The notes: a model not told the origin generated them from the letters alone. Shown: positions 19,609 to 36,155, counted from the stretch's first letter. The stretch is DNA of 64,000 bases from Demequinaceae bacterium (GCA_016933155.1 JAFGBM010000010.1:1-64000), one strand, 5' to 3'. Program-made: numbers and translations.

Positions 19609-20880
19609 ATGAGCATTCAAGCCGAGCCGCACCTCGAACCCATCGTGGTGCGATCGGTCGAGATCTCCGATCCCGGCGACCTCATCCAAGCCCTCCCGGT
19701 TCCGGGTATTTCTTGGGTCCGACGCGGGGACGGAATGGTCGCCTGGGGGGAGGCTGCGCGGCTGGATGTCTCGGGGACGTCGCGCATCGTCGATGCGCAG
19801 CGATGGTGGAAGGCAATGTGCTCCCGGGCCATCGTCCGCGATGGCGTCGGGACAAGAGGGAGCGGCCTGGTGGCCTTCGGCTCCTTCTCCTTCTCGGCCG
19901 ACTCCGCGACCGCTGGGGCGATCGTCGTGCCGCAGTACATCCTCGGAAGGAGGGAAGGGCGAGCCTGGCTGACAATCGTCTCGACCGCGGCCACGATCTC
20001 GACCCCCAGCCTCAAGGACCTCCTGGGGGACACCTCCCCCTGTCTCCCCATCGGTCCGGTCGAGTTCTCTCCCGGAGATCCCGAGGCCTGGCGGGTCGCT
20101 GTTCTCAAGGCCGTCGGCCGTATCGAGGCGGGGGAGGTAGACAAGGTCGTCCTCGCCAGGGCCATCACCGCGGTGGCGGCCGCCCCTGTGGACGTGAGAA
20201 CCCTCCTGGCCTCTCTCGCGAGGGAATACCCCACATGCTGGACCTTCCACATCGACGGGATGGTCGGGGCGACCCCCGAGTTACTTGCCCGAGTCGATCG
20301 GGGGCTCGTCACGTCACGGGTCCTCGCCGGAACCATCCGGCCGACGGGGGACGAGACGGCCGACCTCGCCCATGCCGCCTCACTTGCCCGCTCATCGAAG
20401 GACCGAGAGGAGCACGAGTACGCCGTCGACTCCGTCACCCGCGTCTTGAATGAACACTGCAGTTCGATCAACGTGCCGGAGGCCCCGTCCGTCATGCATC
20501 TTCCCAACGTCATGCACCTCGTCACCGACGTCACGGGGGTCCTGGCCGACAACACCACGAGCCTCGACCTCGTTGCCGCCCTCCACCCCTCCGCGGCCGT
20601 CTGCGGGACACCGACGGATACGGCCGCCGCCCTCATCGCGAGGCTCGAGGGGCTGGATCGGGGACGCTACGCCGGGCCGGTCGGCTGGATCGACGCCGAA
20701 GGCGACGGAGAGTGGTGCATCGCCCTCAGGACCGCCGAGATCGACACAGCCGACCCGAGGAGTCTGAGGCTCTTCGCTGGCTGTGGGATCGTCGCCGCCT
20801 CCGATCCGGACGATGAATGGGCCGAGAGCGAGGCCAAGCTCGAACCCCTGCGTTCGGCGTTGGGACCGGATCAATCCTGA
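19609..20880 (+). CDS. menF: Isochorismate synthase
   Basis: Converts chorismate to isochorismate, the first committed step of menaquinone synthesis (423 aa). The chorismate-binding fold is complete: KVVLARAI, GATPELLARV, LAGTIRPTG, SSKDREEHEYAVDSV, LHPSAAVCGTP, and the final GRYAGPVGWID and LFAGCGIVAASDPDDEW segments with acidic Mg-binding residues. The men context favours MenF over a salicylate or siderophore enzyme. ATG 19609 is probably leaderless; the 3' end overlaps the convergent gene by 10 bp. Confidence 0.93.
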   Translation: MSIQAEPHLEPIVVRSVEISDPGDLIQALPVPGISWVRRGDGMVAWGEAARLDVSGTSRIVDAQRWWKAMCSRAIVRDGVGTRGSGLVAFGSFSFSADSATAGAIVVPQYILGRREGRAWLTIVSTAATISTPSLKDLLGDTSPCLPIGPVEFSPGDPEAWRVAVLKAVGRIEAGEVDKVVLARAITAVAAAPVDVRTLLASLAREYPTCWTFHIDGMVGATPELLARVDRGLVTSRVLAGTIRPTGDETADLAHAASLARSSKDREEHEYAVDSVTRVLNEHCSSINVPEAPSVMHLPNVMHLVTDVTGVLADNTTSLDLVAALHPSAAVCGTPTDTAAALIARLEGLDRGRYAGPVGWIDAEGDGEWCIALRTAEIDTADPRSLRLFAGCGIVAASDPDDEWAESEAKLEPLRSALGPDQS

Positions 20881-22241
20881 GGAGCGACAACGATCCGATC
20901 GAATCCCGCCGCCCCTTTGTTTTTCACCAGGACGTAGGACAGTTCCCCCCGCGTCGAGTGGCGGGCGACGACCGAGGGGTATCCGAATCCGGGCCTGGGG
21001 GGAGAATCAGCGTCACCCCAGGAGATGAGGTATTCCCCGGCCCACGCCAAACCCTCCGGCACGGGCTCCCCCGGGGGCATGGACCACGCTGTCTCACCCA
21101 GGGCGCTGACAACGATGGATCCCCGGGCGACTCGGTCACCCCCGCCGTTGAACAGGAGGAAGGCTTCCCCCGGTGGCAAGGTCGTGACGTCAACGAAAGT
21201 GCTCGTCAGGAGGGCGAGGGTGTACAGGACCGTGCTTCCGTCTTCGTGAAGGCAGGCGACGAGGAGCTGGCGACCCTCGGGCCAGGAGACCGGCGCACAA
21301 TCCTCCTCACCCGCCGGCATCCCGTGGCTGAATCGCTCGTATCCGCTCGAGTCGGGCGACTCCGACGGTGAGGGAGACGGCTCGGGGGAGGGCGTGGACA
21401 CGGGGAAGATGGATGTCCCCGGCGCGGAATAGCTGACGATCTGTTGCCCGGATCCCGGGTTCCCCTCGACGGTGACCAGGATGGTGCCGTCGGTCGACTC
21501 CAGGAATCCCCCCAGGGTGACCGACTCGACCGGTGTCGCGATGAGGTCGCCGTCGAATCCGACGAGTTCGATGCTCCTGCTGGTCGCGCCCCCGTGCACC
21601 ACCAGCATCCCCTGATCGTCGTTGGCGATCCGAAGCTCGGGGTCCACCCAGACTCCGGACCCTTTCGGACTCGGAAACCGGTCGGAGAGGGCTCCGGTGA
21701 TGAGGTCGAAGGATCGGAGGGCAGTCCCACCGGCGACCGTCTCCTCAACGATCACGGTCCTGAGATCGGGCAGCCAGAGGGCAAGCCGGATGGTCCTGGT
21801 ATTCCCGAGGTCCCCGGCCTCGTAGGCGGCGCCGCTCGGATCGATCACATAGAGATACCGGGGTCCTGGGATTTCCCACTCCCATGGCCCGGTCCCGGGG
21901 GTTTGGGTGGAAGAAGGCACGACGCCCGGCGCCGAGGGGGCGGGGGTGACGGTGACGAGAGGGGGTCCGTACCGCCCGGCGCTCGAGTCGTACTCCACGA
22001 GGATCCACCCGGTATCGACCGCGTCGAGAACGCCCGGCGTTAGGGGCTCGGCTTCAAGGGGCGCCGGATGGTCGATTGCGGTCGACGGCGGGGAGGCCGT
22101 CACGAAGATGACCGTTGGTTCCGGGTTCGGGGCAACCTCGGGCCAACCCCAGAACGTGAGGATCGTCACCCCGCCGAGAAAGATCGCGGCGAGGATTGCG
22201 GTCAATCCCATCCACCAGCCGGAACTCCGGATCTGCGCCAC
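20871..22241 (-). CDS. Membrane-anchored protein of a local four-member family (GW/LYLxxPxG module), copy 1
   Basis: No recognised function. The 456-aa protein has one N-terminal transmembrane segment (about 8-30), then a Pro/Thr/Ser-rich linker and a large extracytoplasmic, Gly/Ser/Val-rich beta domain. A module shared with three nearby genes is clear: GWILVEYDSS at about 78, followed by LYVIDPSGAAYE at about 130. A second Ser/Pro-rich linker splits the protein near residues 280-300, which may separate two beta domains. GTG 22241 has GGGAGGAC immediately upstream. It lies 33 nt after the next paralog and probably ends the menC-menD transcript. A beta-propeller is plausible but unproven. Confidence 0.75.
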   Translation of the reverse strand: MAQIRSSGWWMGLTAILAAIFLGGVTILTFWGWPEVAPNPEPTVIFVTASPPSTAIDHPAPLEAEPLTPGVLDAVDTGWILVEYDSSAGRYGPPLVTVTPAPSAPGVVPSSTQTPGTGPWEWEIPGPRYLYVIDPSGAAYEAGDLGNTRTIRLALWLPDLRTVIVEETVAGGTALRSFDLITGALSDRFPSPKGSGVWVDPELRIANDDQGMLVVHGGATSRSIELVGFDGDLIATPVESVTLGGFLESTDGTILVTVEGNPGSGQQIVSYSAPGTSIFPVSTPSPEPSPSPSESPDSSGYERFSHGMPAGEEDCAPVSWPEGRQLLVACLHEDGSTVLYTLALLTSTFVDVTTLPPGEAFLLFNGGGDRVARGSIVVSALGETAWSMPPGEPVPEGLAWAGEYLISWGDADSPPRPGFGYPSVVARHSTRGELSYVLVKNKGAAGFDRIVVAPQD

Positions 22242-22274: not shown

Positions 22275-23528
22275 CTAACCGTAGACGGGTGGGTGGGGGA
22301 GAATCGTCGTGATGTGGCCGTCCACCCGGGTGAACTCGATGAAGGGCGTACGCTGACCCGTCGCGGGATTGATGAGGGTGAGCCGCTGGAAGTCGTCACC
22401 CACCCGGACCCCCTCGGCGTACTCGATGTCGGACTCCTCCCAAACGACGAGGCTTCCGGTGATCGTAGGCCAACAGGACGGGTAGGAGCAGTCCAGGTCG
22501 ATCATGGGTGTACCGGCCCGATCCGTGATCCGGGTCGCCATCCCCGCGCTGTAGTCATTCCACACGAGCCAGGAGCCCGGGTAATCACCCCAGAACTGCA
22601 GGTAGAAGCTCTCCGGCTGGGCTCCCGGCCAGGGGGTGCTCGCCCCCGACGCGACATCGAGGGTCGTCAACTCCCAGTTGTCGACGTTGCCCCCATAGAC
22701 CAGAAGGGTCCCCTGATCCAGCCACATGAGTTCGTGGTACGTGTCGGTGAGGGGTGACTCCGCCACGGGTGTCGAGTTCCCGTCCAGGTCGGTCACCATG
22801 AAGGTCGTACGGTACGTTCCGCCGACCTCGGACTCCGTCGCATAGGCCAGGGTCAGGCCGTCGGGAGAGAGGCTGGATTGCCCGCAGCCATCGCCGAGAA
22901 GCCGCGTCGTTCCATCGGCATAGTGGACGGTGGTCTCCGAACACCCGCAGCATCCGCCCTCGGTGAGGTAGACGCCCTCCACCGCTGTCGGCTGGCGCGA
23001 TCCGCGGGGCAGGCTATCCTCGCCGACGATCGCGGCCGTTCCATCTTTGAGATCGACGGTCCAGAGGGTCCCGGTGCTCCACTCCCCTTCATAGGCGGTC
23101 GCCTGATAGAGCCACACCTCGGTACCGATCCACGCCTCGATAAACGTCGCCCCCAGCCCCGAGACGTCCGCCCCGAAGTACAGGCTGCCATCCGGGGCCG
23201 CGAGCCAGAGTTCGTCACCGGCGAGGTTCCAGTCCTCCCCCCACTCGGTCTCCTCCATGGCCGCGTCGTAGGCGAGCAGGGTCCATCCCGGTCCGACCTC
23301 GTCCCAGGGGATAGGTTCCCCCCAGGGCAGGTCCCTCGGCCCTTCGGGACTGGCGCTCGGATCTGGGGACGCCTCGGGCCCGCCACCCGGCCATATCGTC
23401 GACGCGGCGACGACCGTGAGCCCGATCACCCCTGCGCCGACGATCGCCCCCCGCAGCCACTGGGGACGCTTCTCGGGGTCCTGTTCGTTACCGATCTCGG
23501 CTGATCCTTCGCCTTCGAGTTTCGTCAT
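22275..23528 (-). CDS. Membrane-anchored protein of the local four-member family, copy 2
   Basis: 417 aa with a short cytoplasmic N-terminus, one transmembrane helix (about 25-45), a Ser/Pro linker and an extracytoplasmic beta-rich domain. The family module appears as GWTLLAYDAA at about 81 and LWLAAPDGSLYF at about 107. A Cys cluster (GGCCGCSE and GDGCGQSS) and another pair near the C-terminus suggest disulfides outside the cell. Repeating blades such as LDGNSTPVAESPLT and LTTLDVASGAS resemble propeller-type repeats. ATG 23528 overlaps the menD stop (ATGA), so it is translationally coupled to menaquinone synthesis. Function unknown. Confidence 0.8.
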   Translation of the reverse strand: MTKLEGEGSAEIGNEQDPEKRPQWLRGAIVGAGVIGLTVVAASTIWPGGGPEASPDPSASPEGPRDLPWGEPIPWDEVGPGWTLLAYDAAMEETEWGEDWNLAGDELWLAAPDGSLYFGADVSGLGATFIEAWIGTEVWLYQATAYEGEWSTGTLWTVDLKDGTAAIVGEDSLPRGSRQPTAVEGVYLTEGGCCGCSETTVHYADGTTRLLGDGCGQSSLSPDGLTLAYATESEVGGTYRTTFMVTDLDGNSTPVAESPLTDTYHELMWLDQGTLLVYGGNVDNWELTTLDVASGASTPWPGAQPESFYLQFWGDYPGSWLVWNDYSAGMATRITDRAGTPMIDLDCSYPSCWPTITGSLVVWEESDIEYAEGVRVGDDFQRLTLINPATGQRTPFIEFTRVDGHITTILPHPPVYG

Positions 23529-26190: not shown

Positions 26191-27558
26191 CTAGGGGTGG
26201 ATGATGGCGCCCCCCTCGGCCGCACCGACCCAGACCCCGTCATCCCCAGGCTCGGGAACGGGCAGGAGGGTCACCGTGATCCCGGATGCAGCATCCCAAG
26301 TCCACAGCGGCCCGACCCCGGTCACGAGGACCGTGCCGCCGACACCGCCGAAGCACCAGGTTGCCCGGTACTCCCCGTTCGTCACGACGACCGGCGAGCC
26401 TTCGTCCAGCACCACCACCGCAGGATGCGAGGTGATGAGGGCCTCCTGATCACCGGCGAGGCAATACCCCGTCACCACGGCACCCTCGGCCGGAAGCGAC
26501 CCGCCGCTCGCCGCCTCGATCGCCCCGATCGTCGCGGAGGTCGTGATCGGTGTCGCCGGTCCCCCGTCGAGGTCGAGGTTCCAGTAGGTGACGCTGTCAC
26601 CCTCGGCCCAGCATTGAACCGCCAGGCCTCCGGAAAGCGACGGCCCCATCGGGTAGCAGGCGATGTACTCTCCCACCGGCTGCATCGCGACCTCCGTCCC
26701 GTCCGGGTGGTAGGCCCGGAAGGACTGGGCGGGAGTCATCTCGAACTCGTAGCGCACCTGGACATCGCCCACATCCATGACGGTGATGCCCTCCCCGCCC
26801 GTGACGATTCCGTCATCCGTCACGAAGGTGAAGTCATCGGTGTAGATCCCGTCGAGTGGCTCACCCGAGCAGAAGCCCCGGAGCAGCCATTCCTCCCCAG
26901 GACGGTCTTCCGCCTTCATATAGCCGCCCTCGCCGCAGAACTGCCACTCGTGCGTGACCTCACCGGACGCGAGGTCCAAGGTCAGAGCGACGTAACGTCC
27001 CTCGACGATGAGCGCCACCTGCCGCTCGGTGTCCCACGCCGCAAGATAGGGCGCTCCGTACCGGGTGAGGTTGGCGACCTCGAATCGTTCACCCGCAGGC
27101 GAGACCAGGTACAGGACCCGCTCGCCCTCCACGGGATCGCTGACATTGCTCCGCTTGGTGGAGTCGAAGATCGCCAGGACCCATCCGGTGTCGGCCGTCG
27201 CGTACGCCTCGCCGGTCAGGGCGACGGCGTCGGGAAGTCCGACTCCCGTCGTCACCTCCCGGTCCGCGACCTCGGGCCAGTCGACGTTACCCGTCGGGCT
27301 TGGGTTCGGCGCATCCGTCACGCTCGGAGTCACCACAGGCGTCACATCCTGGAAGTGGTCGTACGCCAGGAAGCCGACGAGCCCGAGAGCACCGATCGAC
27401 GTCGCTGCGAGCAGCCCCGTTCCCGCTTGACGCATCCCCCGGCGCCTCTTAGCCCTCCGGGTCACACCCTTGGCCATGACCACATGGTCGAAAGCGGGAA
27501 GGCCCCGCTCCGTTGCCGCCTCGGCAGCCCCGAGGACATCGCTCAGTTCCTTCGTCAT
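26191..27558 (-). CDS. Membrane-anchored protein of the local family, copy 3; candidate sigma-factor partner
   Basis: 455 aa. A cytoplasmic N-terminus of about 46 residues ends in a very basic RRAKRRRGMR stretch, then comes a transmembrane helix (about 47-66), a Thr/Pro linker and an extracytoplasmic domain of about 370 residues. The family module is GWVLAIFDST at 125 and LYLVSPAGERFE at 149. Six cysteines are in register with the gene upstream of the sigma factor (e.g. FCGEGG, GFCSGE, ACYPMG, QCWAEG, GYCLAG, TWCFGG). ATG 27558 overlaps the stop of the ECF sigma gene (ATGA), the usual position for a cognate membrane regulator. No HxxxCxxC zinc anti-sigma motif is seen, so anti-sigma function is inferred from arrangement only. 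Confidence 0.8.
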   Translation of the reverse strand: MTKELSDVLGAAEAATERGLPAFDHVVMAKGVTRRAKRRRGMRQAGTGLLAATSIGALGLVGFLAYDHFQDVTPVVTPSVTDAPNPSPTGNVDWPEVADREVTTGVGLPDAVALTGEAYATADTGWVLAIFDSTKRSNVSDPVEGERVLYLVSPAGERFEVANLTRYGAPYLAAWDTERQVALIVEGRYVALTLDLASGEVTHEWQFCGEGGYMKAEDRPGEEWLLRGFCSGEPLDGIYTDDFTFVTDDGIVTGGEGITVMDVGDVQVRYEFEMTPAQSFRAYHPDGTEVAMQPVGEYIACYPMGPSLSGGLAVQCWAEGDSVTYWNLDLDGGPATPITTSATIGAIEAASGGSLPAEGAVVTGYCLAGDQEALITSHPAVVVLDEGSPVVVTNGEYRATWCFGGVGGTVLVTGVGPLWTWDAASGITVTLLPVPEPGDDGVWVGAAEGGAIIHP

Positions 27559-28091
27559 CGCACACCTCCCGTCGGACGCACCGGCGCCCGCTCCTCGTCC
27601 GTCACGACCGTTCCCAGCATCGTGTTGAGCGCCCGAATGCCATCGGACACATATCGTTTGACCGCCCCCGTCGACAGCTTCAGGGCGTCGGCCGTTTCCG
27701 CCGTCGATTGATCTGCGAGGAAACGCAAGGCCACGCACGCCCTCACCCGCGGGGGCAATTCGGCCAGGGCCGAAGCCACATCGACCCGACCCACCGCCTC
27801 GACCTCGTGCCCGGGCTCGAACCCGCGGATCTCCACACGGTCGACCCGCGCCTTGTCCCGTTCGCGCTTGCGTCGGCTGTCGACGAATCGTGACGCGATC
27901 GCGCGCCTGACATAGGCCTCCGCGTGCCCGATCGACTCGAACCGGGCGCGGCCGGAAAAGGACGCGACCAGGGAGTCCTGGACCAGATCCTCGGCGTCGC
28001 CCACATCACGAGTGAGCAGATAGGCATAAGCGATGAGCGCGCGGTGGCGTTCCCTGACCAGCCTCTCCAGCATTGGTTCCCATGTCGCCAT
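27555..28091 (-). CDS. ECF-type RNA polymerase sigma factor (SigE-family)
   Basis: Group 4 sigma factor of 178 aa. Region 2 covers about residues 10-78, with the core-binding helix GDAEDLVQDSLVASF and a basic DNA-contacting end SRRKRERDKAR. Region 4 covers about 105-158, with LPPRVRACVALRFLADQST and the helix-turn-helix AETADALKLSTGAVKRYVS. ATG 28091 has a perfect AAAGGAGGAG seven nt away; an upstream in-frame start would add eight residues. It sits between two paralogous membrane-anchored proteins on the same strand and overlaps the downstream one by 4 bp. Its regulon is unknown. Confidence 0.92.
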   Translation of the reverse strand: MATWEPMLERLVRERHRALIAYAYLLTRDVGDAEDLVQDSLVASFSGRARFESIGHAEAYVRRAIASRFVDSRRKRERDKARVDRVEIRGFEPGHEVEAVGRVDVASALAELPPRVRACVALRFLADQSTAETADALKLSTGAVKRYVSDGIRALNTMLGTVVTDEERAPVRPTGGVR

Positions 28092-28125
28092 GGCTCCTCC
28101 TTTCGGAAGCCTCAACGACGCCGGG

Positions 28126-28138
28126 AACCGATTCGGTT
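28126..28138. promoter_or_regulatory. Perfect inverted repeat upstream of the sigma factor gene
   Basis: AACCGA-T-TCGGTT (6-bp arms, 1-nt centre) lies 34 nt before the sigma factor start codon and just after the previous gene's stop. It could be an operator or a small attenuating structure; no -10 box is obvious beside it. Confidence 0.35.
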
Positions 28139-28142
28139 GGGT

Positions 28143-29438
28143 CTACGGCAACCTCAGCGCGGTGTATCCGTTGGCGTCGATCAGGTATCCGTCCGTGCCG
28201 ACCGTCTGGATGGCCGATCCTGAACCCATGGGGGGAATCATGACGACGGTGCCGCCGTTGTCGATGTCCGCCCACCACAATCCGCCGCCGCCGCTCATGA
28301 GAGCCGAGGTGCCTGACACTGTGTGGCACCTGCGGAACGGGTAGGACACGTCCGCACCGACTCCCTCCACGCTTCCCCCGTACAAGACACCCAACCGATT
28401 CTCGTCCCCCAGGGAGAACTGGACGATCCGGAGCGCGCTGTCCGAGCAGTACCCCGAAACCCAGTAATCGTTCGGGCCGAAGCCCCCATGGCTCGCCGCA
28501 AAGTCCTCGAGCTGACCGCTCGTCACCACCTCTATGGGAGGCATGCCGTCGACGGGAAGTTCCCAGACACTCAGGCGCCCGGCGTCGGAATAGCAGTTCA
28601 TGGCGAGCGTGTCCCCACGCCCTTTGCCCAAGGGATAGCAGTCACCTGCGCTGCTCCAGGGGAGGGGGGCCGAACCCCCATTGGGATAGAAGGCGATGAA
28701 CTTGTCGTCGATGAGCCCCTCGGACTCATATTGCACCTGGACGTCGCCCACATCTTTGACCGTCAGGAAGGGGCCGGCGCCGACGATACCGCTCGGCACG
28801 AGGATCCCCGCGTCGGTGTACAGGCCGTCGAACCCGTCTCCCTCGCAGTTGCCCCGGACCAGCCAGTTCCCCCCGCGCGCCTCGCCGTACAGGACTCCGC
28901 CCTCGCCCGCGCAGGGCGTCCACGACGAATCGACCGTCCCGGTCGCCATGTCGAAGACCTGAAGCTCGTGGCGGTCCTCGACGAGGAGAAGGAGGTCCCG
29001 CGTGTCGTCCCACGCCACGAGGTTGGGCTCCGTCAGGCCGATGCCGTCAAGGTTGGCGAGTTCGTAGCGGATACCCGTCGGCGAGATGAGGTATAGGAGT
29101 CTCTGATCCGGGGTCACGGTGTGCGGGTCGACGGCCGTATTGATCTGTGTGGTGTCGTCGATCGCGACGACCCATCCGCTGCCCGCTGACGCAAGGACGG
29201 CCTCCGTCAGTACCTCAGCGGGCGGAACGTACGGGCCGACGGTCACGGGACGCGCAACAAACGCTGGAGTCACCGTCGGCGCTACAGTCGGGCTCGACGA
29301 GGTGCTGGGCGCGGGTGTGGGGCCGGGCGAGGCCGTCCCCCCTCCCCACCATTCGAGGAGCACCCCGAGGAGCAGGGCGATGATCGCGAGCAGCAGGACG
29401 ATGATCCAGGTCACCGCGTTGGACAGTATCTTGGCCAC
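28143..29438 (-). CDS. Membrane-anchored protein of the local family, copy 4 (upstream of the sigma factor)
   Basis: 431 aa: only about 8 cytoplasmic residues, one transmembrane helix (about 10-28), a Pro/Thr/Ser linker, then an extracytoplasmic beta-rich domain. The family module is GWVVAIDDTT at 88 and LYLISPTGIRYE at 115. It is the closest relative of the 455-aa protein on the other side of the sigma gene: both contain FDGLYTD or LDGIYTD, VGDVQVxYE, and six cysteines in the same order. The GTG is preceded by GGAAGGAG. Function unknown; extracellular ligand sensing is a reasonable hypothesis. Confidence 0.8.
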   Translation of the reverse strand: MAKILSNAVTWIIVLLLAIIALLLGVLLEWWGGGTASPGPTPAPSTSSSPTVAPTVTPAFVARPVTVGPYVPPAEVLTEAVLASAGSGWVVAIDDTTQINTAVDPHTVTPDQRLLYLISPTGIRYELANLDGIGLTEPNLVAWDDTRDLLLLVEDRHELQVFDMATGTVDSSWTPCAGEGGVLYGEARGGNWLVRGNCEGDGFDGLYTDAGILVPSGIVGAGPFLTVKDVGDVQVQYESEGLIDDKFIAFYPNGGSAPLPWSSAGDCYPLGKGRGDTLAMNCYSDAGRLSVWELPVDGMPPIEVVTSGQLEDFAASHGGFGPNDYWVSGYCSDSALRIVQFSLGDENRLGVLYGGSVEGVGADVSYPFRRCHTVSGTSALMSGGGGLWWADIDNGGTVVMIPPMGSGSAIQTVGTDGYLIDANGYTALRLP

Positions 29439-30442: not shown

Positions 30443-31567
30443 CTACTGCACCTCGCTGTCGAACTTGATGACCGCGTTGCTTTGGGCCCCTGAGAGCGGG
30501 GCGAGTTCGATCCACGTCTTCCCGGGGGCGAGGAGCACCGGATCGCCGTCGAGCGTCTTCAGGTGGTAGGCGTCGCGTTGGTCCGCCTTGGTCCACCTGA
30601 TGGGGATGATCTTCCCCCCCGTCGCGACGTATCCCGGGGCGTCCTTGACGACGACGAACGACTCCGGGTTGTACCCCTGCGTATAGGCGACCTTCACCTT
30701 GAGGATGATGACGTTCATGGCCGTGATCTGGTTGCCATCCATAGTCATGTGGGGATCCTCGAATTCGAATCGATCCCACCGTCCCGTCGTCTCATTCCAG
30801 GTCCAGTGCGGGTGACCGCAGTCGGAATACCTGATGTCGATCGTTCCCACCGCGTTGCCCTCGACGGTTGCCGTTGCTCCGCTGGCTGGGTAGGCGTAAT
30901 CGAATTGCTGGGGCGTCGGGCCCATCCCTTTCTCGGAGGCCTCTGCAGAGAACGTTGCGGGATGGCCCCAGAGCCGGAACTCCTGATTCTTGTCCACGAC
31001 ATCCCTGGTCATGAAACTGAAGCCCTCAGAACCCTGGAGGTACCCCTCCGTGGATGTGAAGTTCCTGCCCAGAAACAACTGCTTCATCCTGACGAAGGCC
31101 CTCTGGACGTCGAAGTTGCTTCCCGAGGCGACGAGAAGGGTGTCGAAGGACCCCATGATGTTGGGATCCATGTTCCGGGCCGAGCGGATCGGCCCGACGT
31201 CGTCTGGGAACTCCGTCTGGTAGAACGCCATAAGCCGGAGACAACTCCCGTTGATGTATTGCTCGAAGACGATGTCGGCGTATTCGAGGCCCTTCTGTGG
31301 GCGGCCATACGCCGTGTTCTCGATCTTGATGCCCACCGAGGGACGCTCAAGGTGTTCTGGCGCCACACCCTCCGCGCCCAGACCGGTGAGCGGCCACACA
31401 ATGGTGGGTATCGGGTCCTCAGGTGGAGACGGGGCGACCAACCGAGCCTCGCGGGGCACGTCGGTCAACGTCACCGTTGGCTGCGTGAGAACCTCGGGCG
31501 CGCATCCGCCCACGAGGGCGGTGATCACGATCACCGTGACCAGGCCACCGAACCTCCTCCGGCTCAC
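30443..31567 (-). CDS. DUF3048 (YerB-like) lipoprotein, array copy 1
   Basis: Predicted lipoprotein of 374 aa: an N-terminal signal with lipobox VGGC (Cys22) followed by APE. The DUF3048 N-terminal domain shows WPLTGLGAEG, GIKIENTAYGRPQKGLEYAD and VGPIRSARNMDPNIMG. The C-terminal domain shows the KVAYTQGYNPESF strand and the conserved end DGDPVLLAPGKTWIEL. Biochemical function of the family is unknown. The GTG is leaderless with TAGACT 6 nt upstream. It is the last of four paralogs in a row, 9 nt from menB, to which it is convergent. Confidence 0.9.
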   Translation of the reverse strand: MSRRRFGGLVTVIVITALVGGCAPEVLTQPTVTLTDVPREARLVAPSPPEDPIPTIVWPLTGLGAEGVAPEHLERPSVGIKIENTAYGRPQKGLEYADIVFEQYINGSCLRLMAFYQTEFPDDVGPIRSARNMDPNIMGSFDTLLVASGSNFDVQRAFVRMKQLFLGRNFTSTEGYLQGSEGFSFMTRDVVDKNQEFRLWGHPATFSAEASEKGMGPTPQQFDYAYPASGATATVEGNAVGTIDIRYSDCGHPHWTWNETTGRWDRFEFEDPHMTMDGNQITAMNVIILKVKVAYTQGYNPESFVVVKDAPGYVATGGKIIPIRWTKADQRDAYHLKTLDGDPVLLAPGKTWIELAPLSGAQSNAVIKFDSEVQ

Positions 31568-31573
31568 GATTCC

Positions 31574-31579
31574 AGTCTA
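31574..31579 (-). promoter_or_regulatory. -10 box, DUF3048 copy 1
   Basis: TAGACT on the minus strand, 6 nt before GTG 31567; upstream context TGCC is shared with copies 2 and 3. Confidence 0.6.
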
Positions 31580-31607
31580 GGCAGGAGTCGACATTGAGGT
31601 CGGCCCG

Positions 31608-32735
31608 TCACTTCTGGACGACGCCGTCGAACTTGACGGTCGCGATGACCGCCCCCGAGGACGGGACGAGTTCGACCCAGGTTTGGCCGGGGGCGAGGTA
31701 GACCGGGTCGCCGTCCAGGGTCGTGAGGTGGTAGAGGTCACCCCGGCTGGACTTGGTCCACCTGATGGGGATGACCTTTCCGCCCGTGGCGACGAACCCG
31801 GAGGCATTCGACACGACGACGAAGGCCTCTGGGTTGTACCCCTGCGTGTAGGACACCTTGACCCGGAGGAGGATGACGTTCGTCGCCGTGACAGGGTTGC
31901 CATCCATCGTCACGAGGGGATTCTCGAACTCGTAGCGGTTCCACACCCCCCCGTCCTCGTCCCACACCCAGTGGGGATGGCCGCAACTGGAGTACCTGAT
32001 GTCGATCGTCCCCACCGCGGAGCCCTCGATGGCCGCCGTCGCGTCGCTGCCTGGGTAGGTATATTCGAACTGCTGGGGTGCGGGCCCAAACCCCACGTCG
32101 GCCGCCTCGTCGGCGAATACCTCCGGGTGCCCCCACAGCCGGAACTCGAAATCCTTGTTGACGATATCCCTCGTCACCCGCTCGAAACCGTCGGAACCCC
32201 GGAGGTAGCCGGTCGTAAGGGAGAAGTCGTCGGCGAAAAGCATCTGATTGAGCCTGTTGAAGGTGTATTGGACCTGGTAATTGCACCCCGATGCGAACAA
32301 GACGGTGCTGAACGATCCCATGATGTTCGGGTCCTGAGTCCTGGCCGACCGGATGGGGCCCACACTCTCCGGGAGGTCGGAGTGAAAGACCGCGACGAGT
32401 CGGAGGCATCTGCCGTTGATCATCTCGTCGAATACGATGTCCGCGTGCTCGATCCCCTTCTGCGGTCGACCCCGAGCCGTGTTCTCGATTTTGATCGGAA
32501 CCGCTGGGCGATCGAGATCGGCCTGAGGGACGCCTTCGGCGCTCAACCCCGTCAACGGCCAGATGACGGCAGGCCTCGGATCCTCGGGAGGACTGGGGAC
32601 AATGGCGCGGTCCTCGATGGGAATGGCGGACAGGGTCTCCGCAGGGCCGTCGACCACCGCGGGCGCGCATCCACCCACCACGACGACGGCCGTCGCCGCC
32701 AGGATTCGGCTTCTGAGCCGTCTCGACCGGATCAC
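31608..32735 (-). CDS. DUF3048 (YerB-like) lipoprotein, array copy 2
   Basis: 375-aa lipoprotein with lipobox VGGC (Cys23). DUF3048 landmarks: WPLTGLSAEG, PIKIENTARGRPQKGIEHAD, VGPIRSARTQDPNIMG, and a C-terminal DGDPVYLAPGQTWVEL. The frame stays open 90 nt upstream, but GTG 32735 is chosen: it directly precedes the basic signal-peptide n-region, and a TAGACT box sits 7 nt before it. Substitutions such as TQ for NM after SAR suggest specialisation relative to copies 1 and 3. Confidence 0.9.
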   Translation of the reverse strand: MIRSRRLRSRILAATAVVVVGGCAPAVVDGPAETLSAIPIEDRAIVPSPPEDPRPAVIWPLTGLSAEGVPQADLDRPAVPIKIENTARGRPQKGIEHADIVFDEMINGRCLRLVAVFHSDLPESVGPIRSARTQDPNIMGSFSTVLFASGCNYQVQYTFNRLNQMLFADDFSLTTGYLRGSDGFERVTRDIVNKDFEFRLWGHPEVFADEAADVGFGPAPQQFEYTYPGSDATAAIEGSAVGTIDIRYSSCGHPHWVWDEDGGVWNRYEFENPLVTMDGNPVTATNVILLRVKVSYTQGYNPEAFVVVSNASGFVATGGKVIPIRWTKSSRGDLYHLTTLDGDPVYLAPGQTWVELVPSSGAVIATVKFDGVVQK

Positions 32736-32742
32736 GGCGTTC

Positions 32743-32748
32743 AGTCTA
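32743..32748 (-). promoter_or_regulatory. -10 box, DUF3048 copy 2
   Basis: TAGACT on the minus strand, 7 nt before GTG 32735. Confidence 0.6.
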
Positions 32749-32785
32749 GGCACACACGAATCGAGCGGGGCGACACCGCGCCTCC

Positions 32786-33913
32786 CTATTGCTGTTGGAC
32801 GCCGTCGAACTTGATGTATGTCCATTCTCCGGAACCCGACCTGGGCACCATTTCAACCCAGGTGGTTCCGGGGGCGAGATGGACCGGTTCTCCTTCGAGG
32901 GTCGTGAGGTGGAAAGTGTCTGTACGATCCGCCTTGCTCCACAGAATAGGGATGACCTTCCCTCCCGACGCGACGAATCCGGGATCGTTGGTCCGAATGA
33001 CGAAGGATTCGGGATTGACGCCGTTGGTATAGGCGACCCTGACCTTGAGGATGACGATATTCGCAGCGCTGATCTGATTCCCATCCTTGGTCAGGTGGGG
33101 ATCGTCGAACTCGAATCGTTTCCACAGGCGGCTCTCGGCATCCCAGTTCCAATGCGGGCGGGCGTTGCCGGAGAACCTGATGTCGATCGTCCCGACCGGG
33201 GTGCCCTCGATCGTCGCCGTTGCGGTGTCGGCTGGATAGGCGTAGTAAAACTGCTGGCTCGCCGGGGAGGCCCCTTTCTCGACGGCCGATTCCGCCAGCG
33301 GACCCAGGTCGACCCTCAGGCTGTGCATGGAGATCGTCGGCGATACCCGGAAGAAGCCCTCGGAGTACCAAATGTATCCCTTGGTGACACCGCTGTACTT
33401 CGCATCCTCCATGAATAGGTATTGGTGGACGTTCTGGAACACGTACTGAACCGCGAAGTTGCATCCCGAGGCGACAAGGGCCGTGTCGAACGACCCGATG
33501 ATGTTGGGATCCATGTTCCGCGCCGATCGGACGGGTCCGACCTCTTCCGGGTAGTAGGTGTGGAAGACCGCCAGGAACCGTGTGGCGCTGTTGTTGATGT
33601 ACTCCTCGAAGACGATATCGGCGTACTCCAGGCCGGTCTGCGGACGCGCGTAGTACCCGTTCTCGATCTTGACCCCGATGGCGACCCGGTCGAGATTCGC
33701 CTGGTCCACCCCCACGGCGCCCAAACCGGTGAGCGGCCACACGATCTCCGGGATCGGATCCTCGGGCGGGGCGGGAACGACGATCCGATGCTCGGCAGGT
33801 ACCGCCGACACGGTCTCCGCTGGAGGCGAAAGAACCTCGGGCGCGCATCCGCTCACGAGGGCGGAGATCGCGGCCAGGAGGGCAAGGCCCCCCAGCCGTT
33901 GGGTCCGATTCAC
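32786..33913 (-). CDS. DUF3048 (YerB-like) lipoprotein, array copy 3
   Basis: 375-aa lipoprotein, lipobox LVSGC (Cys23). Motifs: WPLTGLGAVG, GVKIENGYYARPQTGLEYAD, VGPVRSARNMDPNIIG, and a C-terminal EGEPVHLAPGTTWVEM. GTG 33913 is preferred over an upstream in-frame start because TACACT lies 7 nt before it and the signal peptide begins there. Most similar in layout to copy 1. Confidence 0.9.
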   Translation of the reverse strand: MNRTQRLGGLALLAAISALVSGCAPEVLSPPAETVSAVPAEHRIVVPAPPEDPIPEIVWPLTGLGAVGVDQANLDRVAIGVKIENGYYARPQTGLEYADIVFEEYINNSATRFLAVFHTYYPEEVGPVRSARNMDPNIIGSFDTALVASGCNFAVQYVFQNVHQYLFMEDAKYSGVTKGYIWYSEGFFRVSPTISMHSLRVDLGPLAESAVEKGASPASQQFYYAYPADTATATIEGTPVGTIDIRFSGNARPHWNWDAESRLWKRFEFDDPHLTKDGNQISAANIVILKVRVAYTNGVNPESFVIRTNDPGFVASGGKVIPILWSKADRTDTFHLTTLEGEPVHLAPGTTWVEMVPRSGSGEWTYIKFDGVQQQ

Positions 33914-33920
33914 GGCGTCA

Positions 33921-33926
33921 AGTGTA
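33921..33926 (-). promoter_or_regulatory. -10 box, DUF3048 copy 3
   Basis: TACACT on the minus strand, 7 nt before GTG 33913. Confidence 0.6.
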
Positions 33927-33974
33927 GGCATGCTCAGGCCGGATGGGTGAACTCGCCCGACCCGGCCGGTCCTC

Positions 33975-35069
33975 CTAATCCTGGGCAACGTCATCGAACT
34001 TGATCACCGCAGTGTGCTTGGCCCCCGAGATGGGGACCAACTCGACCCAGGTCTGCCCCGGGGCGAGGTATACAGGACCCCCGTCGAGGGTGGTGAGGTG
34101 GATGGCGTCCCTCCGGCTTGACTTGCTCCATCTGATCTCCGTGATCCTGCCGTCGGTGGCGACGTATCCAGGGGCATCGTCGACGATCATGAGGGACTCG
34201 GGAAGGTAGCCGTAGACGTATCGCACCTTGACCCGGAGGATGACGACATTCGTCGCCGAAATCTGAATATCGTCGAGGGAGACGTGGGGCTTGTCCTTCT
34301 CGAAGCGCATCCAGAGCCGCTTCGACTCGTCCCAGTCCCAGTGGGGATGGGCGTCCGGGGAGAACTTGATATCGATGGTGTCGATGGCGGAACCCTCTGT
34401 GGCCGCAGTCGCCGTCTCGACCGGGTAGGCGTAGTCGAACTGCCTCGTGGCCGGAGGGAGGTCGGCTTCAAGGGCCTGCGCGACGAATTCACTCATCGTC
34501 CCATGCAAGTTGTGAGGGGCCGGCCTGACCCTGACCCGGAAGAACCCATCGTCTTGGTTGTCGTCGTATATCAAGACCTGGTCGGTCTTCTGCACCGCCC
34601 GCAAGACGTCCCGAGAAGCCCCGGAGAACACCAGCGGCGCGTAGAGCGAACCGACGATGTTCGGATCCATCGGCCGCATGGATCGAATCGGGCCGACCTC
34701 TTCCGGATAGACGGAATGGAAGACCGCCACGAGTCTGGAGATTCCGAACTCGACGTACTCCTCGAAGACGATATCCGCAGCTTCGAGGTTCTTAGGCGGC
34801 CGGGCGTGGGGATGGTTGTCGATCTTGACGGCGATCGCCACCCCCTCGAGGTCGGCGGCTGAGACTCCTTCCGCGTCCAGGCCCGTCAATGGCCACACGA
34901 TCGTCGGGGCCGGATCCTCGGGAGGTGAGGGAACGACGACCCTGCTCTCTCGGGGGACGTCCGTCACCGTCACAGCCGGAGAACCAAGGGTCTCCGGAGC
35001 GCAGGCGCTGAGGAGAACGATGGCCCCGATTACCAGGGGTATCCCTCGAAGACGGGGGGTGGGGGCCAT
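33975..35069 (-). CDS. DUF3048 (YerB-like) lipoprotein, array copy 4 (most divergent)
   Basis: 364-aa lipoprotein, lipobox LLSAC (Cys23). It keeps WPLTGLDAEG, AVKIDNHPHARPPKNLEAAD, VGPIRSMRPMDPNIVG and the C-terminal GPVYLAPGQTWVEL. The KIDNHPHARP wording is closer to the Firmicute YerB family than that of copies 1-3, so this may be the ancestral copy. ATG 35069 is leaderless (TAGACT 7 nt away) and shares a 33-bp gap with divergent menE. The longer open frame upstream runs through menE on the opposite strand and is rejected. Confidence 0.9.
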   Translation of the reverse strand: MAPTPRLRGIPLVIGAIVLLSACAPETLGSPAVTVTDVPRESRVVVPSPPEDPAPTIVWPLTGLDAEGVSAADLEGVAIAVKIDNHPHARPPKNLEAADIVFEEYVEFGISRLVAVFHSVYPEEVGPIRSMRPMDPNIVGSLYAPLVFSGASRDVLRAVQKTDQVLIYDDNQDDGFFRVRVRPAPHNLHGTMSEFVAQALEADLPPATRQFDYAYPVETATAATEGSAIDTIDIKFSPDAHPHWDWDESKRLWMRFEKDKPHVSLDDIQISATNVVILRVKVRYVYGYLPESLMIVDDAPGYVATDGRITEIRWSKSSRRDAIHLTTLDGGPVYLAPGQTWVELVPISGAKHTAVIKFDDVAQD

Positions 35070-35076
35070 GGGTAGA

Positions 35077-35082
35077 AGTCTA
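35077..35082 (-). promoter_or_regulatory. -10 box, DUF3048 copy 4
   Basis: TAGACT on the minus strand, 7 nt before ATG 35069. Its edge is only 8 bp from the menE box on the other strand. Confidence 0.6.
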
Positions 35083-35090
35083 GGCTTGCC

Positions 35091-35096
35091 TAGGCT
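35091..35096 (+). promoter_or_regulatory. -10 box for leaderless menE
   Basis: TAGGCT ends 6 nt before GTG 35103. Confidence 0.6.
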
Positions 35097-35102
35097 AGGG
35101 GG

Positions 35103-36155
35103 GTGACCTATGCGAGACTGGCCGACGGACCGGAGTCGGCCGTGGCCGAAGCCCTCCACGGCGATGCCGCTGGCCTCCTGGTCGCGACCTCCGGCTCGTC
35201 CGGGACGCCCCGTGAGGTCCTCCTCGGCACCGAGTCCTTGCGGGCCTCCGCCGAAGCCACCCATGCCCGCCTTTCTGGGCCGGGCCGTTGGTTGCTTGCC
35301 CTCCCTGAGAACCGGATCGCAGGCGCTCAGGTGCTCGTCCGGTCCTTCCTCGCGGAGACCACCCCTGTTCGGCTTGTATCCGGCCCATTCGATCCGGCCG
35401 CCTTCGCCTCCGGCGTCGCTGCCCTTACCGCCACGACGGATCCCGGTGTGCCGCTGTACACTTCCCTCGTTCCCACCCAACTGCACCGGATTCTGGCTTC
35501 CGAATCATGCCGCGAGGACTTGGACCGCTTCAACGCCGTCCTCGTGGGCGGCGCCCCCCTCGGCCTCCCCCGGGAAGCCCTGCCCCCGTCGGTCATCGAG
35601 ACCTATGGGGCGACGGAGACTGCTGGCGGCTGCGTGTACGACGGCATCCCCCTCGATGGAGTCCAAGTGGAGGTCGACGACTCCGGACGGGTGACCATCG
35701 GCGGGATGGTGATCGCGGACGGGTATGCCGACGACGCTGATTCTGACACAGACATCGGCACCGGCCCCGGCCTCTTTCTTCGTGATGACGTGCGGTGGTA
35801 CCGCACCCCCGATGCCGGTGTCTGGGCGGGCGGATCCCTCGCCGTCGTCGGTCGGTTAGACGATGTGATCGTCTCAGGCGGATTCAAGGTGCATCCCACG
35901 ACCGTCGAAACCGCCCTCCTGACCCTTCCCGGCATCGAGCAGGCGGTCGTCGTCGGCGTCCCCGACTCCGAATGGGGGGAGCGGGTCGTCGCCCTCGTCG
36001 TCGGCTCCGCCGTCCCGACGATCGAGCGGGTCAGGGGGGACCTGCTCAAGACCCTTCCCCGCTTTGCCCTTCCGAGGGAAATCAGGCCTGTTGGCGCCCT
36101 GCCCCTCCTGGAGAGTGGGAAGATCGATCGGAAGGCGGCCCGGCGGCTCGCTTGA
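35103..36155 (+). CDS. menE: o-Succinylbenzoate-CoA ligase
   Basis: ANL-superfamily adenylating enzyme that activates o-succinylbenzoate with CoA. Motifs: phosphate loop LVATSGSSGTPREV; IETYGATETAGGCVYDG; RTPDAGVWAGGSLAVVGRLDD; and the C-terminal catalytic lysine in LLESGKIDRKAARRL. At 350 aa it is compact compared with firmicute MenE of 450 or more residues but matches short actinobacterial forms. Leaderless GTG; followed 18 nt later by menA on the same strand. Confidence 0.93.
   Translation: MTYARLADGPESAVAEALHGDAAGLLVATSGSSGTPREVLLGTESLRASAEATHARLSGPGRWLLALPENRIAGAQVLVRSFLAETTPVRLVSGPFDPAAFASGVAALTATTDPGVPLYTSLVPTQLHRILASESCREDLDRFNAVLVGGAPLGLPREALPPSVIETYGATETAGGCVYDGIPLDGVQVEVDDSGRVTIGGMVIADGYADDADSDTDIGTGPGLFLRDDVRWYRTPDAGVWAGGSLAVVGRLDDVIVSGGFKVHPTTVETALLTLPGIEQAVVVGVPDSEWGERVVALVVGSAVPTIERVRGDLLKTLPRFALPREIRPVGALPLLESGKIDRKAARRLA

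Follow-up and report, generated by a model that had tools for sequence, protein, structure and literature searches.

A SigE-like ECF sigma factor, its candidate beta-propeller anti-sigma factor and a sensor-only paralogue in a Demequinaceae genome

Gene arrangement at the locus

We analysed a stretch of 64,000 nucleotides (hereafter the window) from a Demequinaceae bacterium (GCA_016933155.1 JAFGBM010000010.1:1-64000; host assembly of 1.885 Mb in 15 contigs), in which the gene of an ECF sigma factor, P0001, lies between those of two paralogous membrane proteins, P0003 upstream and P0002 downstream (Table 1). The coordinates agree with an earlier sequence-only reading of this DNA, which had described a 178-aa sigma factor, an upstream paralogue and a downstream protein overlapping the sigma gene by 4 bp; the sigma stop and the P0002 start share these bases as ATGA. 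The single transmembrane (TM) helix claimed for each paralogue was likewise recovered by hydropathy, with one hydrophobic segment per protein.

Table 1. Features of the sigma factor locus and of related genes in the window
Feature	Position	Strand	Remarks
P0003, sensor-only paralogue, 431 aa	28143..29438	-	TM residues 9-27 and propeller, without N-terminal module
Putative autoregulatory promoter of sigma-P0002	28114..28140	-	-35 CCAACC, -10 CGTT, 18 bases after CCAAC
ECF sigma factor P0001, 178 aa	27555..28091	-	Regions 2 and 4
P0002, membrane anti-sigma candidate, 455 aa	26191..27558	-	Two-helix module, one TM helix, Pro/Thr linker, beta-propeller
Putative minimal anti-sigma domain, P0002 residues 1-46	27421..27558	-	Conserved columns and two-helix prediction
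P0002 transmembrane segment, residues 47-65	27364..27420	-	Hydropathy; inside model helix 25-71
P0002 extracytoplasmic beta-propeller, approx. residues 105-455, six cysteines	26194..27246	-	Structure comparison
P0005, 417 aa, diverged short-N-terminus relative	22275..23528	-	Iterated profile match
P0004, 456 aa, diverged sensor-only relative	20871..22241	-	Iterated profile and TBLASTN

The outer parts of P0002 and P0003 share 37% identity, far above chance (BLASTP E=7e-53). P0002 possesses exactly six cysteines (208, 230, 301, 316, 366 and 402), each of which aligns with one of the six in P0003 (176, 198, 267, 282, 331 and 371), and the blocks DG(I/L)YTD and VGDVQVxYE are common to both proteins, so that the conserved cysteines and blocks noted earlier stand in the alignment. 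Both outer domains, whose fold the sequence-only reading had left to structure prediction, are beta-propellers by comparison (Z 11-14, rmsd 4-6 Å, approximately 270-290 residues), that of P0002 reaching VIA-align Z values of 11-13 against 7- and 8-bladed propellers; this common fold does not tell the ligand. In the AlphaFold model of P0002 (mean pLDDT 71, some propeller stretches below 50), an all-beta domain is preceded by helices at residues 3-19 and 25-71. A sizeable N-terminus is confined to the downstream protein, as had been claimed: just 18 codons separate the GTG start of P0003 from the stop before it, and this frame therefore cannot encode the N-terminal module.

Elsewhere in the window, P0005 and P0004 (20871-23528) are located directly behind a menD-like gene, the stop of which P0005 overlaps by 4 bp. 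P0004 is similar to the P0003-like gene of a congener, G001 (TBLASTN E=1e-7). The place behind the menD-like gene is taken in genome G032 by a second sigma/partner pair instead of P0005/P0004. A tandem of four DUF3048 (PF11258/PF17479) lipoprotein-like genes occupies positions 30443-35486.

The sigma factor and its membrane partner

P0001 is a member of the ECF sigma-70 family with regions 2 and 4 (Pfam Sigma70_r2 39.4, r4 39.1 and r4_2 40.7 bits, all over cut-off) and scores 55.7 with TIGR02937 (sigma70-ECF) against a curated cut-off of 42.9. Its best named subfamily model, TIGR02983 (SigE family), covers nearly the full length of the protein, but the score of 112.1 bits lies under the curated cut-off of 141.55 and P0001 is thus not a formal member; no sigma copy of the host genome reaches that value. 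The host genome contains approximately 12 strong SigE-family-like sigma genes, most of them followed by a membrane protein of the P0002 kind, and about 10 further sigma/partner pairs besides that of the window; at such numbers in 1.9 Mb, the pair is among the commonest signalling layouts of this bacterial group. At one locus (L034, G000:C3:129000-148500), a stretch of approximately 15 kb contains five sigma genes of the SigE type together with membrane partners.

Relatives of the sigma factor were found in Demequina, Cellulomonas, Actinotalea and the unclassified MAG HGW-Actinobacteria-4, which places the host genome with Demequina and its neighbours. The survey set comprised 235 non-redundant sigma genes (score >150), 230 of them not cut by a contig end. 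At 220 of these 230 loci the sigma gene is directly followed by that of a protein with an early membrane segment, whose start falls between -14 and +15 nt from the sigma stop in approximately 220 loci (at -4 in 130) and whose Arg-rich cytoplasmic N-terminus has a median length of 43 aa. Nearly all loci sampled class-wide have the same layout of a sigma factor and a one-TM partner. Among actinobacteria the two-gene switch occurs commonly, the extra sensor copy being a rarer add-on, and the sigma/anti-sigma core is an already known kind of system; no ligand for the pair was found described in the open-licence papers searched.

The N-terminal module is kept across the partners while the outer domains vary: in the column profile of 147 partners, positions 4 and 8 are Leu and there is a Val/Leu spacing, with R-R-R-R-x-x-R at the membrane, where the RRAKRRRxxR of P0002 is also placed. 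Residues 1-46, for which the sequence-only reading had looked to anti-sigma profiles, found no match in Pfam or PDB sequences, known anti-sigma families included; neither P0002 and P0003 nor the module gave anything over cut-off in Pfam, NCBIfam, PADLOC or PDB sequences, and no relatives were detected in viral contigs. The presumed 45-residue clamp of so common a pair matches no curated domain. The first cysteine of P0002 is residue 208, hence the N-terminus has no HxxxCxxC, as had been noted. A zinc anti-sigma (ZAS) identity was ruled out by the cysteine-free cytoplasmic domain.

It should be noted that P0002 shares several features with Tt-TolB of Thermoanaerobacter tengcongensis, residues 1-39 of which bind the sigma factor Tt-RpoE1 and which inhibits it at full length (PMC3397946). 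In both cases, the partner gene lies immediately downstream of the ECF sigma gene and encodes a cytoplasmic N-terminus of approximately 39-46 aa, without zinc motif in P0002, one TM helix and a TolB/propeller-type outer domain, TolB chains being among the Foldseek matches of P0002. There are differences as well: a TolB domain is recognised in Tt-TolB, but P0002 has only the propeller fold in common with it, with no match to the TolB sequence family in Pfam; the Tt-RpoE1 and Tt-TolB genes are 2 bp apart, whereas those in the window overlap; and no extra sensor-only copy is reported in the accessible part of that paper. Given this precedent and the pairing in 220 of 230 related loci, the earlier proposal of a zinc-free anti-sigma factor gains support, and it is highly probable that P0002 acts as an anti-sigma factor at the membrane, with a beta-propeller sensor joined to a two-helix domain. 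In a mean-field DCA of 218 pairs, the top couplings fell at plausible places, between helix 1 and sigma region 4 and between helix 2 and region 2.2; however, control columns from the TM segment and linker score as high, and these couplings are therefore not evidence of an interface between the N-terminus and the sigma factor.

Among other known systems, the class II anti-sigma factor CnrY (CnrH/CnrY) resembles P0002 in that a membrane protein with a single helix bears a minimal cytoplasmic domain of two helices (PMC7406223). The class II feature of a two-helix domain shorter than 50 aa is present in P0002 (model helices 3-19 and from 25 onward; family median 43 aa). As regards sequence homology to CnrY, a profile search of PDB sequences with the module found no relative, though the module is short. 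CnrY is not known to have a large propeller sensor. RsbN, the class III partner of BldN in Streptomyces venezuelae, is likewise an actinobacterial membrane anti-sigma factor without zinc, but its anti-sigma domain has three helices, compared with two in P0002 (PMC7406223). The SigI/RsgI systems of Clostridium thermocellum are similar in that one genome encodes several membrane anti-sigma factors with varied outer sensing domains, but belong to other sigma and anti-sigma families, and the RsgI ligands are known polysaccharides (PMC12203970).

Promoter and upstream paralogue

The motif CCAAC-N17/18-CGT was found upstream of 178 of the 235 sigma genes, with approximately one occurrence expected (shuffles: mean 1.25, maximum 3; reverse complement: 2; inside genes: 1), which is consistent with autoregulation by the sigma factor. 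The site in the window (28140-28114) sits between the P0003 stop and the sigma start, and the motif was not detected upstream of P0003, P0004 or P0005. A classical GGAAC/CGT promoter was not enriched upstream of the sigma genes, CCAAC-CGT being found instead. Autoregulation is usual among ECF sigma factors (PMC3817407), and the conserved sigma-type promoter expected upstream of an autoregulated ECF operon is present here. Taken together, the sigma gene and P0002 look like one autoregulated unit, with P0003 outside it.

The sequence-only reading had proposed P0003 as a co-sensor or decoy of this sigma factor and had expected the three genes to co-occur in related genomes. At the syntenic menB-menC place, genomes G059 and G032 have the sigma factor and its partner without P0003, whereas G001 has a P0003-like gene with neither sigma factor nor P0002. 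The pair is thus seen at this locus in relatives and the triple is not; an obligate three-gene system is not supported, and the position of P0003 outside the putative sigma promoter also speaks against an obligate role. The sandwich as a conserved triple at this locus was ruled out by synteny. P0003 groups with the two G001 copies in a single clade (support 95/96), with NG86 dN/dS values of approximately 0.31 (nearest relative) and 0.37, a method that is crude at high GC; these values argue against neutral decay and indicate purifying selection on P0003.

We consider it likely, at a probability of about 0.78, that the sigma factor and P0002 constitute a sigma/anti-sigma operon with clamp, sensing propeller, release and autoregulation, and that P0003 is a selected but non-obligate gene outside this unit. 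This reading builds on gene order, overlap, topology, fold, promoter enrichment and the absence of the module from P0003, all features of the sequence itself; from the binding and inhibition of Tt-RpoE1 by Tt-TolB (PMC3397946), we infer the same clamp, tether, sensing and release for P0002. The cytoplasmic N-terminus, with its two helices and the Arg cluster at the membrane, would clamp the sigma factor there, and the outer propeller would sense an envelope or extracellular signal. Such a signal would free the sigma factor, probably via proteolysis of P0002, and the free sigma factor would in vivo transcribe its own operon from the CCAACC-N-CGTT element at 28140-28114, together with a small regulon. 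P0003 would be a sensor-domain paralogue without the anti-sigma module, kept by selection outside the sigma-dependent unit. A site-2-protease homologue (Peptidase_M50) is present in the host genome; M50 proteases are near-universal and its presence therefore argues only faintly for proteolytic release.

Sensor-only copies, rival readings and candidate regulon

A paralogue was found directly upstream of the pair in 16 of 154 cases, mostly in tandem sigma/anti-sigma arrays, and most apparent sandwiches elsewhere were rejected as such arrays. True sensor-only copies adjoin a pair at L093, L112, L143, L188, L215, L273, L306 and in the window. Three of these loci, from three Demequina species (L143, L306 and L273), are syntenic, with promoter, sigma factor, anti-sigma factor and, 10 nt later, the sensor-only gene; at L273 (2519-7972), sensor-only copies flank the pair on both sides, an independent case of the layout in the window. 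D. maris (L093) and D. rhizosphaerae (L112) also have a copy beside a pair, and those of the Cellulomonas group (L188 and L215) are lipoproteins by lipobox. The looser form of the earlier co-sensor proposal thus stands in that sensor-only copies do occur beside other sigma/anti-sigma pairs, and is not supported as regards an obligate partner at the window locus. Neither such copies nor their recurrence were found described in the open-licence papers searched, and they apparently represent an undescribed variant.

The sensor-only proteins might be true third components that determine the threshold of the switch, either through mixed assemblies with the anti-sigma factor or as competitors for its ligand or protease. 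Their position beside pairs in the three syntenic species (on both sides at L273) and at L093, L112, L188 and L215 speaks for this role, but only a small minority of the approximately 220 pairs has such a copy, tandem duplication alone puts copies side by side, and P0003, whose clade remains in G001 without a sigma pair, is not under a sigma-type promoter; we regard it as possible, yet unlikely. Another tentative and rather doubtful explanation is that the copies are outputs, i.e. envelope proteins that bind the ligand of the anti-sigma factor and have a function of their own, comparable to the domains common to enzymes and RsgI. The copy is the next gene after the anti-sigma gene at L143, L273, L306 and L093, and may share its promoter there, a motif match lies 53 nt before the open frame of the copy at L112, and lipid anchors in some copies and purifying selection would fit as well; P0003, however, has neither a sigma-type promoter nor a catalytic or binding domain recognised by Pfam.

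Divergence is much faster in the outer domains than in the sigma factors paired with them. Across 52 pairs whose sigma factors share at least 90% identity, the median identities are 92% for the sigma factor, 81% for N-terminus and TM segment and 64% for the outer domain, the extremes being 96 to 29 (L092/L099) and 97 to 39 (L209/L210). L092/L099, L209/L210 and L095/L098 combine near-identical sigma factors with partner outer domains merely 29-50% identical. Between G036 and G028, dS is 0.22-0.32 in flanking genes, 0.35 in the sigma gene, 0.40 in the N-terminus and 0.71 in the outer domain, and in the tree the outer domain of the G036 anti-sigma factor groups with sensor-only copies, apart from other anti-sigma factors (91/95 support). 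The identity gradient, the raised outer-domain dS and this grouping would all suit an origin of the copies as duplication by-products that serve mainly as a recombination pool renewing the anti-sigma sensor. Misalignment, however, inflates dS in diverged parts; with well-aligned codons only, outer dS is over sigma dS in 32 of 48 pairs, a modest excess that leaves sensor exchange a hypothesis rather than a result, and loci without sensor-only copies diverge equally strongly (L092/L099); we think such a pool improbable. Speculatively, and with little credence on our part, the pairs could form a class of switches in which a conserved sigma factor and clamp are combined with exchangeable, fast-evolving propellers, and membrane- or lipid-anchored sensor-only copies act as rival receptors or as an exchange pool. 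If such copies do tune or renew sensors, this would be an unusual means for bacteria to alter the signal that is detected by a conserved switch.

That the sigma factor is simply co-transcribed with P0002 and not controlled by it is very unlikely: the literature searched contained no direct experiment on this family and the N-terminus matches no known anti-sigma domain, but the pairing is near-universal, its cytoplasmic module is conserved while the outer domain varies, and there is the Tt-TolB precedent (PMC3397946), all of which argue against mere co-transcription.

For the favoured sigma/anti-sigma operon, the conserved promoter motif makes regulons predictable from sequence. The host genome contains 14 exact promoter-like sites, of which three are at sigma genes and most others are intragenic, and intergenic candidates were limited to L231, L236 and L227. 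At L231 (1444-641) and L236 (1501-1526), the intergenic motif precedes a 268-aa lipoprotein without Pfam match and a small membrane protein, respectively, which are candidate regulon members.
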